Positions 13,495 through 59,093 of a DNA stretch of 64,000 bases are shown piece after piece (position 1 is the first letter of the stretch; every line of letters starts with the position of its first letter). A program made the translations under genes and the position numbers. The stretch lies in NCBI GenBank assembly GCA_017999895.1, contig JAGNKY010000008.1, positions 1 to 64,000 of the forward strand, written 5' to 3'. The notes under the pieces are model-generated. The model ran no database searches, was not told the DNA's origin, and saw only the letters and a list, made by a program, of their open reading frames with translations. The stretch comes from Bacteroidales bacterium (lineage in GTDB: Bacteria > Bacteroidota > Bacteroidia > Bacteroidales > VadinHA17).

Positions 13495-14781
13495 ATGCCT
13501 GCAAAAGAAATATTAATAAATAAAATCAACTACGGCAATAATGAAGTATTCCGCGAATTGTACGGTAATGATTCAAATGAATTGAAACGTCATGCCGCAA
13601 GATATATCCGGCTTCTGAATCAATTTGAAAATGTGTTTGGTAACGGTAGAGAAGTTGAGTTTTTTACTTCTCCCGGACGAACAGAAATAGGTGGAAATCA
13701 TACAGATCATAATTGGGGTCGTGTTTTAGCAGGGGCGGTTAACCTTGATAATGTATCGGTGGCATCCAGGAATAATTCAAATATAATTCGAATACTTTCA
13801 GAAGGATATCCCAGATTCGAAGTAAATCTATCATCTCTTGAACCTGAGCCAAGTGAGAATTACACTTCTGCCGCCCTCGTAAGAGGAATATGTGCCCGAT
13901 TTAAAGAACTTGGATATAATATTGGAGGTTTTGACGCCTGCATAGATGGAGGTGTACCTAAAGGCTCCGGATTAAGCTCTTCGGCTTCCTTTGAAGTTCT
14001 TATAGGTGCAGTTATTAACAAACTTTTCAATAATGGGAAGATTGACCCTATTGAAAATGCATTAGTAGGACAATATTCTGAAAATAATTTTTTCGGAAAA
14101 CCTTGTGGATTAATGGATCAGACAGCATGTGCAATGGGCGGACTTATTACAATTGATTTCGAGAATCCATCAAAGCCTGTGGTTAAAAAAGTGAATTTTG
14201 ATTTTACAACTACTGGATTTTCTCTGGTAATAACCGATACAGGAGGGACTCACGCTGACCTCAATGAAGAATATGCATCCATCCCGATTGATATGAAAGC
14301 TGTGGCTGCTGAAATGGGAGCTAAAGTCCTTCGCCAGACAACACTCGAGAGAGTGCTCGAAGCGGCCCCAAAAATACGTGAGAAAGTTGGTGACCGTGCA
14401 ATCCTTCGGGCAATACATTTTTTTGGCGATAATCAACGAGTTGTTGACCAGGTAGCCGCCCTTGAAAGAAACGACTTTAAAGCATTTCTCAATATGGTTG
14501 TTGATTCAGGTTATAGTTCATTTATGTACAATCAGAATATATACCCTGTAAGCAATGTAAAAGAGCAAGGAGTATCTCTCGCCCTTGCACTTAGCGAACT
14601 TGTGCTGAAAGGGAAAGGTGCATGGCGTGTCCATGGAGGAGGATTTGCAGGCACAATACAGGCATTTGTACCTCAAAATATATTAGACAAATATGTAAGT
14701 ATGCTTGAACATTTCTTTGGGAAGGGTTCCTGCCATAACCTTTTTATTAGGCACCAGGGAGCCGGTGTTGTGGAACTTTGA
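13495..14781 (+). CDS. galK: Galactokinase
   Basis: GalK phosphorylates galactose at C1 in the Leloir pathway. The 428-residue GHMP kinase shows the galactokinase signature SPGRTEIGGNHTDHNWG, the ATP-binding GSGLSSSASFE motif and the C-terminal VHGGGFAGTIQAF motif. I start at ATG 13495 (MPAKEILINK), because the ATG-like upstream extension from 13450 would begin inside the terminator hairpin. It is followed 44 bp later by galM. No galT or galE is present in the window, so the pathway must be completed elsewhere. Confidence 0.94.
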   Translation: MPAKEILINKINYGNNEVFRELYGNDSNELKRHAARYIRLLNQFENVFGNGREVEFFTSPGRTEIGGNHTDHNWGRVLAGAVNLDNVSVASRNNSNIIRILSEGYPRFEVNLSSLEPEPSENYTSAALVRGICARFKELGYNIGGFDACIDGGVPKGSGLSSSASFEVLIGAVINKLFNNGKIDPIENALVGQYSENNFFGKPCGLMDQTACAMGGLITIDFENPSKPVVKKVNFDFTTTGFSLVITDTGGTHADLNEEYASIPIDMKAVAAEMGAKVLRQTTLERVLEAAPKIREKVGDRAILRAIHFFGDNQRVVDQVAALERNDFKAFLNMVVDSGYSSFMYNQNIYPVSNVKEQGVSLALALSELVLKGKGAWRVHGGGFAGTIQAFVPQNILDKYVSMLEHFFGKGSCHNLFIRHQGAGVVEL

Positions 14782-26904: not shown

Positions 26905-27297
26905 ACAGCTGACCGTTCCATCGTTCCGCCGTCTGGCGGAAAGGAAAGTCCGGGCAACACAGAGCACCATACTTCCTAACTGGAAGATATCCGTGAGGGT
27001 ATAGAAGTGCAACAGAAAATAACCGTTCCCATGTACCTTGCCTGAAGGTAAGGAAAAGGGAATAAGGGTGAAAAGGTGAGGTAAGAGCTCACCGGTTCTG
27101 CTGGTGACAGCGGAAGCCGTGCACCTTATGGGTTGAAAGACCAAGTATACCGGCGATTGAGGGCTGCTCGTCCAATGCCGGGGGGTAGGTCGTACGACTC
27201 GGCCAGCAATGGCTGAGCAAGATAAATGATGGAAAAGGGCTAAAACTTCTTTTTAGAAAAAGAATCCTTACAGAACCCGGCTTACAGGTCGGCTGAA
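26905..27297 (+). ncRNA. rnpB: RNase P RNA, class A
   Basis: The catalytic RNA that trims tRNA 5' leaders. The conserved P4 strands are present: GGAAAGTCCGGGC at about 26943-26955 and ACAGAACCCGGCTTA near the 3' end. The ends pair as helix P1 (CAGCTGACC at 26906-26914 with GGTCGGCTG at 27287-27295). A hairpin of TCCGCC, GTCT, GGCGGA at 26925-26940 occupies the P3 position. The total length of about 390 nt is normal. A strong promoter precedes it and a 12-bp terminator follows directly. Confidence 0.96.
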
Positions 27298-27300
27298 ATA

Positions 27301-37898: not shown

Positions 37899-38048
37899 AA
37901 GATTCACCACGGAACACACTGGCTGACACGGATTTCATTTCAGAATCCTCTGTGCGAACCCGTGTAACCCATGGTGAATTATAAATCATTTTTTTGCAAA
38001 CCTCGCACTTTTCCGATTTATCGGAATTTTGCACAATTTCTGGTTAAA
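37899..38048. repeat. 150-bp palindromic dispersed repeat, copy 1
   Basis: This segment matches 40307-40456 along its whole length with only scattered mismatches and small gaps. The outer arms TTCACCAC and TGGTGAA are inverted, the interior holds imperfectly paired CACGGATTT/AATCCTCTGTG segments, and a second hairpin TCCGAT-TT-ATCGGA sits near the right end. Its last bases (GGTTAAA) contain the stop codon of the leftward M81 gene. Confidence 0.85.
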
Positions 38049-40306: not shown

Positions 40307-40456
40307 AAGATTCACCACTGAATTCACGGATTTACACGGATTTTCATTTCTAAATCCTCCGTGCGAACCCGTGTAACCCGTGGTGAATTATAAATCATTT
40401 TTTTGCAAACCCCGCACTTTCCGATTTATCGGAATTTTGCACAATTCCTGGTTAAA
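40307..40456. repeat. 150-bp palindromic dispersed repeat, copy 2
   Basis: Direct-orientation copy of 37899-38048. Here the outer arms are perfect: TTCACCAC at 40311-40318 and GTGGTGAA at 40380-40387. The right part contains TCCGATTTATCGGA as an inner hairpin. Like copy 1 it sits just downstream of a leftward gene, 22 bp beyond the mnmE stop. Confidence 0.85.
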
Positions 40457-44435: not shown

Positions 44436-44507
44436 GCCTCCTTAGCTCAGTGGTAGAGCAGCTCACTCGTAATGAGCAGGTCGTGGGTTCAAGTCCCATG
44501 GGAGGCT
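44436..44507 (+). tRNA. tRNA-Thr (anticodon CGT)
   Basis: A full cloverleaf: acceptor GCCTCCT pairs with GGGAGGC, D arm GCTC...GAGC, anticodon stem GCTCA/TGAGC around the loop CTCGTAA (anticodon CGT, reading ACG), T arm GTGGG-TTCAAGT-CCCAT. Discriminator T; no CCA is encoded (TCA follows the acceptor stem). Confidence 0.95.
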
Positions 44508-44598
44508 CAAAGATATGTTCAATTATGGATTGCAGATTTTGCATTTTGCAAGAAAGAAGGAATTTTTATCGGGTTTAAAAGAAAAAGCATAATTTTTT

Positions 44599-44606
44599 TA
44601 ATTTTG
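44599..44606 (+). promoter_or_regulatory. Predicted -7 box upstream of the tRNA-Gly repeat array (TAATTTTG)
   Basis: An exact TAnnTTTG match 21 bp before the first broken tRNA-Gly copy. A transcript from here would contain both broken copies followed by the intact tRNA-Gly. Confidence 0.5.
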
Positions 44607-44626: not shown

Positions 44627-44688
44627 GCGGGAATAGCTCAGTTGGTAGTCCGCCATCCGGCGGATCCCAAGCTGAGGCCAATATATAA
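44627..44688 (+). repeat. Broken tRNA-Gly copy with inserted hairpin, unit 1 (62 bp)
   Basis: The unit begins with the first 22 bases of the downstream tRNA-Gly, then TCCGCCATCCGGCGGA (44649-44664) in place of ten tRNA bases. Thirteen further tRNA bases (TCCCAAGCTGAGG) follow, ending with the spacer CCAATATATAA. It lacks the T arm and 3' acceptor strand, so it cannot give a functional tRNA. It is identical to unit 2. Confidence 0.9.
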
Positions 44689-44750
44689 GCGGGAATAGCT
44701 CAGTTGGTAGTCCGCCATCCGGCGGATCCCAAGCTGAGGCCAATATATAA
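44689..44750 (+). repeat. Broken tRNA-Gly copy with inserted hairpin, unit 2 (62 bp)
   Basis: A perfect tandem copy of unit 1, ending directly at the first base of the intact tRNA-Gly gene. The hairpin is at 44711-44726. Confidence 0.9.
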
Positions 44751-44823
44751 GCGGGAATAGCTCAGTTGGTAGAGCATCAGCTTCCCAAGCTGAGGGTCGC
44801 GGGTTCGAATCCCGTTTCCCGCT
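44751..44823 (+). tRNA. tRNA-Gly (anticodon CCC)
   Basis: The intact gene: acceptor GCGGGAA pairs with TTCCCGC, D arm GCTC...GAGC, anticodon stem TCAGC/GCTGA around TTCCCAA (anticodon CCC, reading GGG), T arm CGGG-TTCGAAT-CCCG. Discriminator T; CCA is not encoded. Two broken copies of its 5' half precede it in tandem. Confidence 0.95.
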
Positions 44824-45075
44824 CTTACCCTCCGAAGCTTTCTTTGACCTCCGAATCTTTAGCGTTGGAAGTAGCGTAGGAAGTAGGTGAGGGAAGTATC
44901 AGCCGGAAATAGTAAAGAAATACTGGCAGAGTTAGAATTGGAGAGCGTTAAATTTTGGAGATTCTGAAATGTTTGACAACTATTTAGAAAATAAAACCTA
45001 TTCCCCCACAAATATTACAATATAATACTTTTTTAATTTTAAAAACATTTTTCTCTGATATAATAAAATAGTAAG

Positions 45076-46317
45076 ATGAATGCCCAGATAATAAATATTG
45101 GAGATGAGCTTCTTATAGGCCAGACTGTAAATACAAACGCTGCATATATTGGTGCCGAATTAAGCAAGATAGGTTTTGACATTTGTCAGATCACAATAAT
45201 ACCTGACAGGCGTGAAAATATTCTTAAAGCACTTTCCGAAGTAATAGGCAAATCGGATGTAGTATTAGTTACAGGTGGTCTTGGACCAACCAGCGATGAT
45301 ATTACAAAGCAGACTGTATGTGAGTTTTTTAATACTGTCCTGTTAACTAATATGGAAGTTCTGTCAATGATTGAAATTATGGCGCAGCGTCGAAATTTTC
45401 GGATGAATGAGAAACTCCGCAGTCAGGCCGACGTACCGGCATCATGCAAAGTCCTTATTAATTCAGCCGGCACAGCACCGGGAATGTGGTTTGAAAAAGA
45501 AGGCACGATTTTCGTATTTATGCCAGGTGTTCCCCTCGAGATGAAATATATAATGAATGAACATGTGATTCCGGAACTTAAGAGAAGATTCAGTTCAATG
45601 ATTATAATACACAAAAATATAATGACTTATGGAACCTATGAAGCAAAACTAGCTGAATTACTTGAAGGGTTTGAAGCTGAGCTTCCGTCAAATATTAAAC
45701 TTGCATATTTACCTTCATTTGGAGTAATAAAACTTCGTCTTACGGGATCAGGCAATGATAAATCAAAACTTGAAAAAGAGATAGAAGAACAGGTAAAAAA
45801 ACTTTATAATATAATCCCTGAATACATTTATGGAGAAGATGAGGAACAACTCGAAGAGGTTGTAGGAAGATTATTAAAGAAAAAAGGTCATAAATTATGC
45901 ACTGCGGAAAGTTGTACAGGAGGAAGAATTGCCCAGATGATTACAAGTGTTCCAGGTAGTTCAGCCTATTATAAAGGCTCGGTAATAGCTTATGATAATA
46001 CTGTAAAAACGAATTTACTGAATGTAAATGAATCAACAATTGAAAACTTTGGAGCAGTAAGCTGTGAAACTGCTGAAGAAATGGCACGTGGGGTACTCGA
46101 GCTATTTGGATGCAATTTTGCCGTTGCAACTACAGGAATAGCCGGACCTGACGGAGGAACTACGGAAAAACCTGTTGGAACTGTATGGATTGCTGTGGCA
46201 ACGCCTGAAAAAATAACTTCCGAGAAATTTCAGTTTACAAACGATAGAGTGACAAACATAACAAGATTTTCCCTTTCTGCCCTTAATTTATTACGCCTTA
46301 GAGTTATAAACAGCTGA
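45076..46317 (+). CDS. cinA: CinA-family protein (nicotinamide-nucleotide amidohydrolase)
   Basis: The 413-residue protein has an N-terminal MoCF-like domain (IINIGDELLIGQTVNTNAAYI, cited in part; VTGGLGPTSDDITK; MPGVPLEMKY). The C-terminal CinA domain (CTAESCTGGRIAQMITSVPGSS, cited in part; TGIAGPDGGT) deamidates NMN to recycle NAD. The full two-domain length is typical. It begins the conserved Bacteroidota order cinA, rpmB, rpmG, DUF4295, ftsY, rimO. Confidence 0.93.
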   Translation: MNAQIINIGDELLIGQTVNTNAAYIGAELSKIGFDICQITIIPDRRENILKALSEVIGKSDVVLVTGGLGPTSDDITKQTVCEFFNTVLLTNMEVLSMIEIMAQRRNFRMNEKLRSQADVPASCKVLINSAGTAPGMWFEKEGTIFVFMPGVPLEMKYIMNEHVIPELKRRFSSMIIIHKNIMTYGTYEAKLAELLEGFEAELPSNIKLAYLPSFGVIKLRLTGSGNDKSKLEKEIEEQVKKLYNIIPEYIYGEDEEQLEEVVGRLLKKKGHKLCTAESCTGGRIAQMITSVPGSSAYYKGSVIAYDNTVKTNLLNVNESTIENFGAVSCETAEEMARGVLELFGCNFAVATTGIAGPDGGTTEKPVGTVWIAVATPEKITSEKFQFTNDRVTNITRFSLSALNLLRLRVINS

Positions 46318-57920: not shown

Positions 57921-59093
57921 ATGGATTATACCGGCAATATTGAAAGGTCTGTTCTTCATCTTGATCTCGATACTTTTTTTGTATCGGTTGAGAGGCTCAG
58001 GAACAGCAGGCTCTGTGGTAAGCCTGTTATAGTAGGAAGTCTGTCGGACCGCGGGGTGGTTGCAAGCTGCAGTTACGAGGCAAGAAAGTATGGAGTCGGT
58101 TCGGCTATGCCAATGAAACTGGCAAGGAACCTGTGCCCCGATGCAATAATAATACGTGGCGATATGGAACTTTACAGCAAATACTCCGATATGGTAACTG
58201 AGATAATTGCCGGAAAGGCTCCGCTGTATGAAAAAGCTTCTATTGACGAGCATTATATAGAACTTACAGGTATGGACAGGTTTTTCGGATGCAGCCTGTG
58301 GGCTCACGAACTTCGCAGATATATAATTAAGGAGACAGGCCTGCCTGTATCAATGGGGCTATCCGTTAACAAGACTGTTTCGAAGATAGCGGCAGGAGAA
58401 GCAAAACCCAACGGCGAAATGGAAGTTAAAAAAGAAACTGTACTCCCTTTCCTCGACCCGCTTTCGATAAATAAAATTCCAATGATAGGGCCAAAAACCT
58501 ATTACTTGCTAAGGTCAATGGGAGTGTCAACAATACTTACCCTCAGAAGAATACCTCCCGAAATGCTCGAAAAGGTGATGGGTAAAAACGGTATCGATAT
58601 ATGGAAAAAAGCCAATGGCATCGACAATACTCCTGTTATAAACTATTCAGAACAGAAATCAATAAGTACAGAACATACTTTCGGAAGGGACACCACCGAC
58701 ATAGCGAGAATTAACCAATTACTCGTGAGTATGGTCGAGAAAACAGCATACGAGTTGAGAAAACAGGAAAAGCTGACGTCGTGCATAACGGTAAAAATAA
58801 GATATTCAAATTTCGACACCTATACTTTGCAAAAATGCATTCCGTACACGGCTTTCGATCATATACTGATAGATGCGGCCAAAGAGCTTTTTGCACGGCT
58901 CTACCGGCGCCGCATGCTCATCCGGCTCATTGGGGTGCGCCTGAGTAACCTGGTAAACGGGTTTCAACAGCTCGATATGTTCGACGATACCCCCGAGAAG
59001 GTAAACCTGTACCAGGCGATAGACAGGATAAGAAAGCGTTTCGGAAGCCATGCAGTACAAAGAGCCGCAGGGATTATAACAAAGCAGGAATAG
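57921..59093 (+). CDS. dinB: Y-family DNA polymerase (DinB/UmuC-like)
   Basis: A translesion polymerase of 390 residues. Catalytic Asp15 (LDLDTFFVS) and Asp109-Glu110 (SIDEHYIELTG) are present, with Phe19/Phe20 as the likely steric gate. The thumb and little-finger regions follow, and a clamp-binding motif QLDMF stands at 350-354. The last ~200 bp are richer in GC than nearby genes. It is the first gene of the dinB-dnaE2 unit, divergent from the S24 repressor; a 7-bp tandem repeat begins directly after its stop. Confidence 0.93.
   Translation: MDYTGNIERSVLHLDLDTFFVSVERLRNSRLCGKPVIVGSLSDRGVVASCSYEARKYGVGSAMPMKLARNLCPDAIIIRGDMELYSKYSDMVTEIIAGKAPLYEKASIDEHYIELTGMDRFFGCSLWAHELRRYIIKETGLPVSMGLSVNKTVSKIAAGEAKPNGEMEVKKETVLPFLDPLSINKIPMIGPKTYYLLRSMGVSTILTLRRIPPEMLEKVMGKNGIDIWKKANGIDNTPVINYSEQKSISTEHTFGRDTTDIARINQLLVSMVEKTAYELRKQEKLTSCITVKIRYSNFDTYTLQKCIPYTAFDHILIDAAKELFARLYRRRMLIRLIGVRLSNLVNGFQQLDMFDDTPEKVNLYQAIDRIRKRFGSHAVQRAAGIITKQE

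Follow-up and report, generated by a model that had tools for sequence, protein, structure and literature searches.

How does a tRNA gene, as a rule one of the most stable features of a bacterial chromosome, come to be preceded by two broken copies of itself, each interrupted at the same point by the same palindrome? The question is raised by a locus in the 64,000-nucleotide stretch of a Bacteroidales genome that we analysed (positions 1 to 64,000 of contig JAGNKY010000008.1; hereafter the window). The genome assembly to which it belongs (G000) comprises 2.64 Mb in 29 contigs and is 99% complete. On the forward strand, two 62-bp units at 44627-44688 and 44689-44750, which are 100% identical to each other, lead directly into an intact tRNA-Gly(CCC) at 44751-44824. 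Nucleotides 1-22 of each unit are nucleotides 1-22 of the tRNA, and nucleotides 39-51 of the unit are nucleotides 33-45 of the tRNA. Between these two segments lies the palindrome TCCGCCATCCGGCGGA (44649-44664 in the first copy and 44711-44726 in the second, both on the forward strand), which occupies the place of the 10-nt tRNA segment AGCATCAGCT, nucleotides 23-32. Each unit is completed by the spacer CCAATATATAA, which stops exactly at the start of the next copy or of the intact tRNA. Sequence comparison shows that a preliminary description of the locus had this anatomy exactly right; it had also placed the intact tRNA correctly, apart from its end, which ARAGORN sets one base further on, at 44824. 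The upstream neighbour on the same strand is tRNA-Thr(CGU) (44436-44508), which adjoins broken Gly copies in several congeners too, and the gene that starts at 45076, downstream of tRNA-Gly(CCC), is one that we take to be cinA-like from a reading of its protein sequence.

The broken units cannot be tRNAs, because the 3' strand of the D stem, the 5' strand of the anticodon stem, the T arm and the 3' acceptor strand are all missing from them. ARAGORN calls the third copy alone as a tRNA, tRNA-Gly(ccc), and an Rfam search gave no match for either unit, as opposed to 74.8 bits (RF00005) for the intact gene. By both methods, the units fail to present the complete cloverleaf of a functional tRNA gene.

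Are these copies nevertheless transcribed? A Bacteroidota-type -7 promoter box, TAATTTTG (44599-44606, forward strand), recognized by its sequence and by its placement at related loci, lies 5' of all three copies. Among the 33 loci with upstream copies, TANNTTTG occurs in the 60 nt ahead of the first copy in 19, and in none does it separate the last broken copy from the intact tRNA. With the box in this position, the broken copies are probably part of the tRNA precursor, which agrees with the earlier proposal that all copies share one transcript. That proposal went further and had RNase P choosing the correct 5' end among three identical ones. As the broken copies have neither a T arm nor a 3' acceptor strand, they do not constitute complete RNase P substrates. 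The dilemma is nonetheless supported in part, since only one 3' acceptor strand is present and the 5' strands of the broken copies can compete for it. In a model fold of the three-copy precursor, which treats the RNA as unmodified and devoid of tertiary contacts and co-transcriptional folding, the 3' acceptor strand pairs with copy 1 with a probability of about 0.85, with copy 2 with a probability of 0.14, and with its true 5' strand with a probability of 0.002. The model shows only that such a competition is possible. Natural precursors with three or more copies, in which identical 5' strands face one 3' acceptor strand, make the choice of the correct end by RNase P directly testable.

The palindrome itself is not a local sequence. 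The pattern TCCGCC-N4-GGCGGA has 31 exact copies in the 2.64-Mb genome, compared with 0 for the reversed pattern that served as the control, so its occurrence is not a matter of chance. It is a member of a dispersed family of TCC...GGA hairpins, many copies of which, when read in context, turn out to be the tips of RNA helices. One family member in the window, TCCGCCGTCTGGCGGA (26925-26940, forward strand), makes up the P3 tip of RNase P RNA, whose gene spans approximately 26905-27300. Others are found at the tip of 16S helix 44, at the tips of several 23S helices, and in two tRNA-Ser genes, where they belong to the variable arm. At 29 such sites, the two flanks pair with each other at a mean energy of -8.3 kcal/mol, compared with -6.1 kcal/mol after reshuffling, and none of 200 reshuffles was as low. 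Sister families (TCCCGA...TCGGGA and TCCCGC...GCGGGA) are present in related genomes and exceed the control counts in nearly all of the 26 genomes.

Several other sites of this genome deserve mention. One rRNA operon (L051, G000:C13:11959-14235) carries seven palindromes, located in 16S helix 44, in the 16S-23S spacer and at five 23S sites; they are unusual helix-tip replacements. Downstream (3') of tRNA-Ser(UGA) and tRNA-Ser(CGA) (L020/L254, G000:C12, ~235300-235950, and L013/L253, G000:C9, ~58600-58950), there are partial copies of the tRNA-Ser 3' end and of the inverted repeat that follows it, each joined to the palindrome family. Within the window, TCCGATTTATCGGA occurs twice (38012-38025 and 40420-40433) in nearly the same context, each time followed by ATTTTGCACA, and the pair may mark a further repeat or a common regulatory site.

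The lesion in the tRNA gene is not confined to the window either. A comparison of the locus in related genomes, as had been suggested, revealed hairpin-broken copies beside tRNA-Gly(CCC) in 7 of the 62 genomes of the genus. Over all loci, the number of tandem upstream copies ranges from 1 to at least 6, the window having 2. When each GTDB species was represented by one genome, the scan found 24 loci with the tRNA-Gly lesion, all in Bacteroidota (the named carriers are Bacteroidales and other members of the phylum), and the insertion point is identical in different classes of the phylum. With a freer pattern, 23 of 393 genomes of the order (18 of 207 genera) were positive, the broken genes being tRNA-Gly(CCC), tRNA-Val(GAC and CAC) and tRNA-Asn(GUU); variants at tRNA-Val(UAC) were found in the genus search. 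A phylum-wide sample of 396 genomes contained no Gly case besides that of the window's own genome, so that, certain lineages apart, the lesion is rare. The copy number in the window rests on a 29-contig assembly, which is what a suspicion of an artefact in a metagenome bin would build on. However, the same structure is repeated in many independent assemblies of other species, including those of the isolates Niastella populi, N. caeni, Maribellus sediminis and Algoriphagus litoralis, and the chance that we are dealing with an artefact is negligible.

On a tree of MnmE from 25 genomes, the Gly lesion is present in 7 rows and needs 7 changes, at least 6 of which are forced by well-supported branches, and its clustering is no greater than with shuffled labels. 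G073, the nearest relative in this tree, carries a Val-GAC lesion and, by pattern search, no Gly lesion, although its assembly is 83% complete and this absence is not certain. Because the lesion is scattered in this way on the marker tree, it is the product of a recurrent process and not a local accident. A reading of the locus as a one-off local oddity is not supported, as hairpins of this family are dispersed through the genome and the lesion recurs across the phylum. The common insertion point in different classes and the similar tRNA-Thr neighbourhood in several congeners would also fit a single ancient lesion that was inherited with many losses, with gene conversion maintaining its similarity to the intact gene. 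We find this improbable: besides the scattered, unclustered distribution on the MnmE tree, different palindrome families occupy one and the same site, the cut in tRNA-Asn is two nucleotides further along than in tRNA-Gly and tRNA-Val, and the gene order at the Gly loci varies, with tRNA-Thr being either upstream or convergent.

The window's genome contains a second case, at tRNA-Val(UAC) (L004, G000:C9, ~14534-14663, minus strand). Here, a broken 5' part of tRNA-Val(UAC) with TCCCGATAGATCGGGA is followed by an intact tRNA-Val, behind which lies a GIY-YIG gene in decay. Genome G011 has the 33-nt insert of this locus too, though the tRNA parts differ.

The size of the replaced segment is constant. 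In all 47 units for which comparison with the adjoining intact tRNA allowed both edges to be located (18 Gly, 18 Asn, 8 Val-GAC and 3 Val-CAC), exactly 10 nt are replaced; a row of 37 nt (L089) was left out of this count because the wrong neighbouring tRNA had served as its reference. Both edges of the Gly units were fixed by the design of the scan, whereas the right edge was free for Val and Asn, so the main support for a strict 10-nt rule comes from the latter two, with 29 units from 17 genomes. The replaced segment comprises nucleotides 23-32 in Gly and Val and nucleotides 25-34 in Asn. At the Val-UAC loci and at L165 and L183, the palindrome is seated differently. In the latter two, which belong to two other genomes, it apparently stands in place of the whole anticodon arm of the tRNA copy, as it comes after A26 and the tRNA sequence resumes near position 44. 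There are 40 distinct palindrome sequences of 14-20 nt, each with at least 5 outer pairs. A comparison of 14 Gly loci shows a six-pair stem with 100% pairing, in which three pairs are changed on both sides; this may reflect the swap of one hairpin family for another rather than slow covariation.

Two candidate explanations of this regularity were discarded. An in-frame palindrome of the protein-coding kind would suit the most common exchange of 16 nt for 10 (net +6), but palindromes of 14, 15, 17, 18 and 20 nt are found as well. An alternative hairpin of the D arm and the anticodon arm does not fix the site as a general rule: the observed position ranks second best of 41 in Gly, but only 25 and 14 of 42 in Val-GAC, 10 in Val-CAC and 7 in Asn. 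A GTAG tag, likewise rejected as the target since it is absent at Val and Asn, is part of a wider reading, in which the palindrome is a REP-type element moved by a RAYT or Y1 transposase and the GGTAG of the tRNA supplies the GTAG tag before the hairpin. REPs are short palindromes and can lie inside genes (PMC3733652), GTAG is immediately 5' of the palindrome in tRNA-Gly, and the genome has four matches to Y1_Tnp (PF01797). However, the GTAG of tRNA-Gly belongs to the tRNA, it is found neither at the other genomic copies nor in the Val and Asn cases, and the flanks of the genomic copies have no common tag, such as GTAG/CGTC, at the foot of the palindrome. Furthermore, none of the four Y1 matches has such palindromes at its ends, and a simple insertion does not explain the constant loss of 10 nt. 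This origin therefore appears very improbable to us.

The broken copies come in three arrangements. Upstream copies consist of tRNA nucleotides 1-22 or 1-24, the hairpin, the rest of the tRNA to about nucleotide 46 and a spacer, and they are repeated in tandem as described above. Downstream copies retain the 3' end, are devoid of the 5' acceptor strand and sometimes have a second palindrome in the T arm. Finally, there are lone, full-length tRNA genes with the hairpin, namely Gly in four named genomes and Val-GAC in G011. In the lone Gly cases examined, the genome keeps tRNA-Gly(UCC) and/or tRNA-Gly(GCC), and there is no other Gly-CCC among the matches examined. No lone broken tRNA-Asn was seen where the flanking sequence was available, as expected if this tRNA is essential. 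As upstream and downstream copies have nucleotides 8-46 in common, recombination between them would yield exactly the lone form.

These arrangements bear on the possibility that the broken copies are a functional leader that mimics a tRNA. The hairpin would then form a long stem together with the halves of the D arm and the anticodon arm, and the repeated 5' acceptor strands would regulate how the downstream tRNA folds, how stable it is or how RNase P cleaves it, or would serve as a decoy. The fixed insertion point, a stem preserved via compensatory changes, a strong predicted fold (z -5.1) and the modelled competition for the 3' acceptor strand are all compatible with such a role, as is the fact that the upstream copies, where the box was found, are always between the promoter and the tRNA. 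On the other hand, lone and downstream copies occur, the distribution is very patchy (the 7 of 62 congeners and 1 of 396 genomes given above), the copies match the host's own tRNA as closely as recent duplicates should, and the changes in the stem resemble swaps among the dispersed hairpin families and not slow covariation. On balance, we consider a leader function to be unlikely.

A GIY-YIG endonuclease gene (PF01541) is a frequent neighbour of the broken copies at some of the tRNAs. It lies directly 3' of the intact tRNA at 10 of the 11 Asn loci, the eleventh being on a contig that ends 110 nt past the tRNA. Downstream GIY-YIG genes are also present at 5 of 8 Val-GAC loci (four were found by script and the one at L120 by hand, as its frame starts inside the tRNA) and at 1 of 3 Val-UAC loci, where it is the remnant in the window's own genome. 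The Gly loci have one in 1 of 19 cases with the lesion versus 0 of 18 lesion-free cases, and this comparison set consists of Gly loci only. There is no GIY-YIG gene near the tRNA-Gly of the window. At the Val and Asn loci with 3' copies, the end of the GIY-YIG frame marks the start of the downstream broken copies, and at the Asn loci this frame reads into the broken tRNA. A junction of the nuclease 3' end with a tRNA 5' repeat is absent from the window.

Two loci show duplicated nuclease genes. L160 has two nearly identical GIY-YIG genes in tandem 3' of an intact tRNA-Asn, the first of which runs into a hairpin-broken tRNA-Asn copy. At L150, in the genome of L077, a tandem pair of tRNA-Val(UAC) genes precedes duplicated GIY-YIG frames, and the locus contains no palindromes; it is possible that it represents an earlier stage of such arrays. 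Taken as an analogy with known nucleases, the gene order suggests that the GIY-YIG protein is a likely partner in the process. At the Gly loci, it may have been lost, may act in trans, or may be a passenger; the last of these is conceivable because neither the window's tRNA-Gly nor 18 of the 19 Gly loci have a GIY-YIG gene nearby.

The reading that we prefer, and to which we assign about an even chance, is that the centre of tRNA genes is exchanged, over and over, for a mobile hairpin, and that dead partial copies are amplified in tandem beside an intact one. The process would start from the small dispersed TCC...GGA hairpin, seen at the helix tips of many RNA genes. In tRNA genes, the observed pattern is that the hairpin takes the place of exactly 10 nt, from the end of the D arm to the anticodon loop, which would come about most simply by the repair of a site-specific break with a copy of the hairpin. 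The replacement destroys the D and anticodon stems. Judging by where it is found, the lesion persists if the tRNA is dispensable, as in the lone broken Gly-CCC and Val-GAC, or if an intact copy adjoins. Unequal tandem recombination would then multiply the partial copies between the promoter and the intact gene, from 1 to at least 6. Mainly at the Asn and Val loci, a downstream homing-type GIY-YIG endonuclease may cause both the breaks and the tandem duplication, in the manner of SegB in phage T6. The window has no GIY-YIG gene adjoining the locus, and the palindromic copies alone remain there. No intermediates or de novo events of replacement were seen among the genomes compared.

A more specific and rather doubtful proposal is that the tRNA-targeting GIY-YIG nuclease and the mobile hairpin form a joint site-specific exchange system in Bacteroidota. 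The nuclease would cut the centre of the tRNA gene, and the copy in which the hairpin has replaced the ten bases would become immune. Tandem arrays with one intact tRNA would arise in this manner, and recombination between upstream and downstream copies would remove the intact gene, leaving a lone broken gene of a dispensable isoacceptor.

That a hairpin has taken the place of the same ten bases time and again, in tRNA genes that are unrelated, is a sign of a mutational or mobile process that obeys strict rules of position. It also accounts for many tRNA fragments that annotation would overlook or take for pseudogenes. In the open-licence literature, we found no description of the lesion or of a process with such positional rules, and nothing relevant on palindromes in bacterial tRNA or rRNA genes, on the palindrome sequences themselves, or on hairpin-bearing tRNA pseudogenes in Bacteroidetes.

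How does this locus compare with known systems? Genomic islands that target tRNA genes employ tyrosine integrases, use the 3' end of the tRNA and leave partial duplicates behind. Our loci share with them the tRNA gene as a landing site and the leftover partial duplicates, but here the 5' half and the centre of the gene are involved and no integrase adjoins, and the preliminary description was right in not regarding the locus as the usual 3'-end integration scar. Similar to REPs of the GTAG/CGTC families and to the Rickettsia palindromic elements, the hairpins are short, dispersed bacterial palindromes that are sometimes found inside genes (PMC3733652). They differ in that neither a constant tag nor an association with a transposase was found, that their seat is in structured RNA genes, and that bases are replaced rather than an element simply inserted.

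The RHE and DHE of mitochondrial genomes are short hairpins of mobile appearance that are scattered through intergenic and RNA regions and are retained in the mature RNA (PMC2800124). The hairpins described here are also scattered through the genome and look mobile: near-identical copies are found at unrelated loci of one genome, and they sit in tolerated, exposed parts of structured RNAs (P3, helix 44, 23S rRNA and tRNA-Ser). In contrast to RHE and DHE, they reside in bacterial chromosomes, and the exact 10-nt tRNA replacement and the tandem arrays of broken tRNAs have not been described for the mitochondrial elements.

SegB of phage T6 is a homing endonuclease of the free-standing GIY-YIG type; it cuts in tRNA genes and brings about the joint tandem amplification of tRNA-Tyr and segB, via a short homology between the 5' end of the tRNA and the 3' end of segB (PMC13096335). 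The loci described here differ from that system in being chromosomal, with no phage context shown, in the palindrome carried by every extra copy, and in the Gly loci, the window among them, that are without a nuclease gene. The likeness to T6 lies in the tRNA gene being adjoined by a GIY-YIG gene, at the Asn and many of the Val loci, and in the tandem partial repeats of tRNA and nuclease, in which the 3' end of the nuclease gene is joined to the 5' part of the tRNA.
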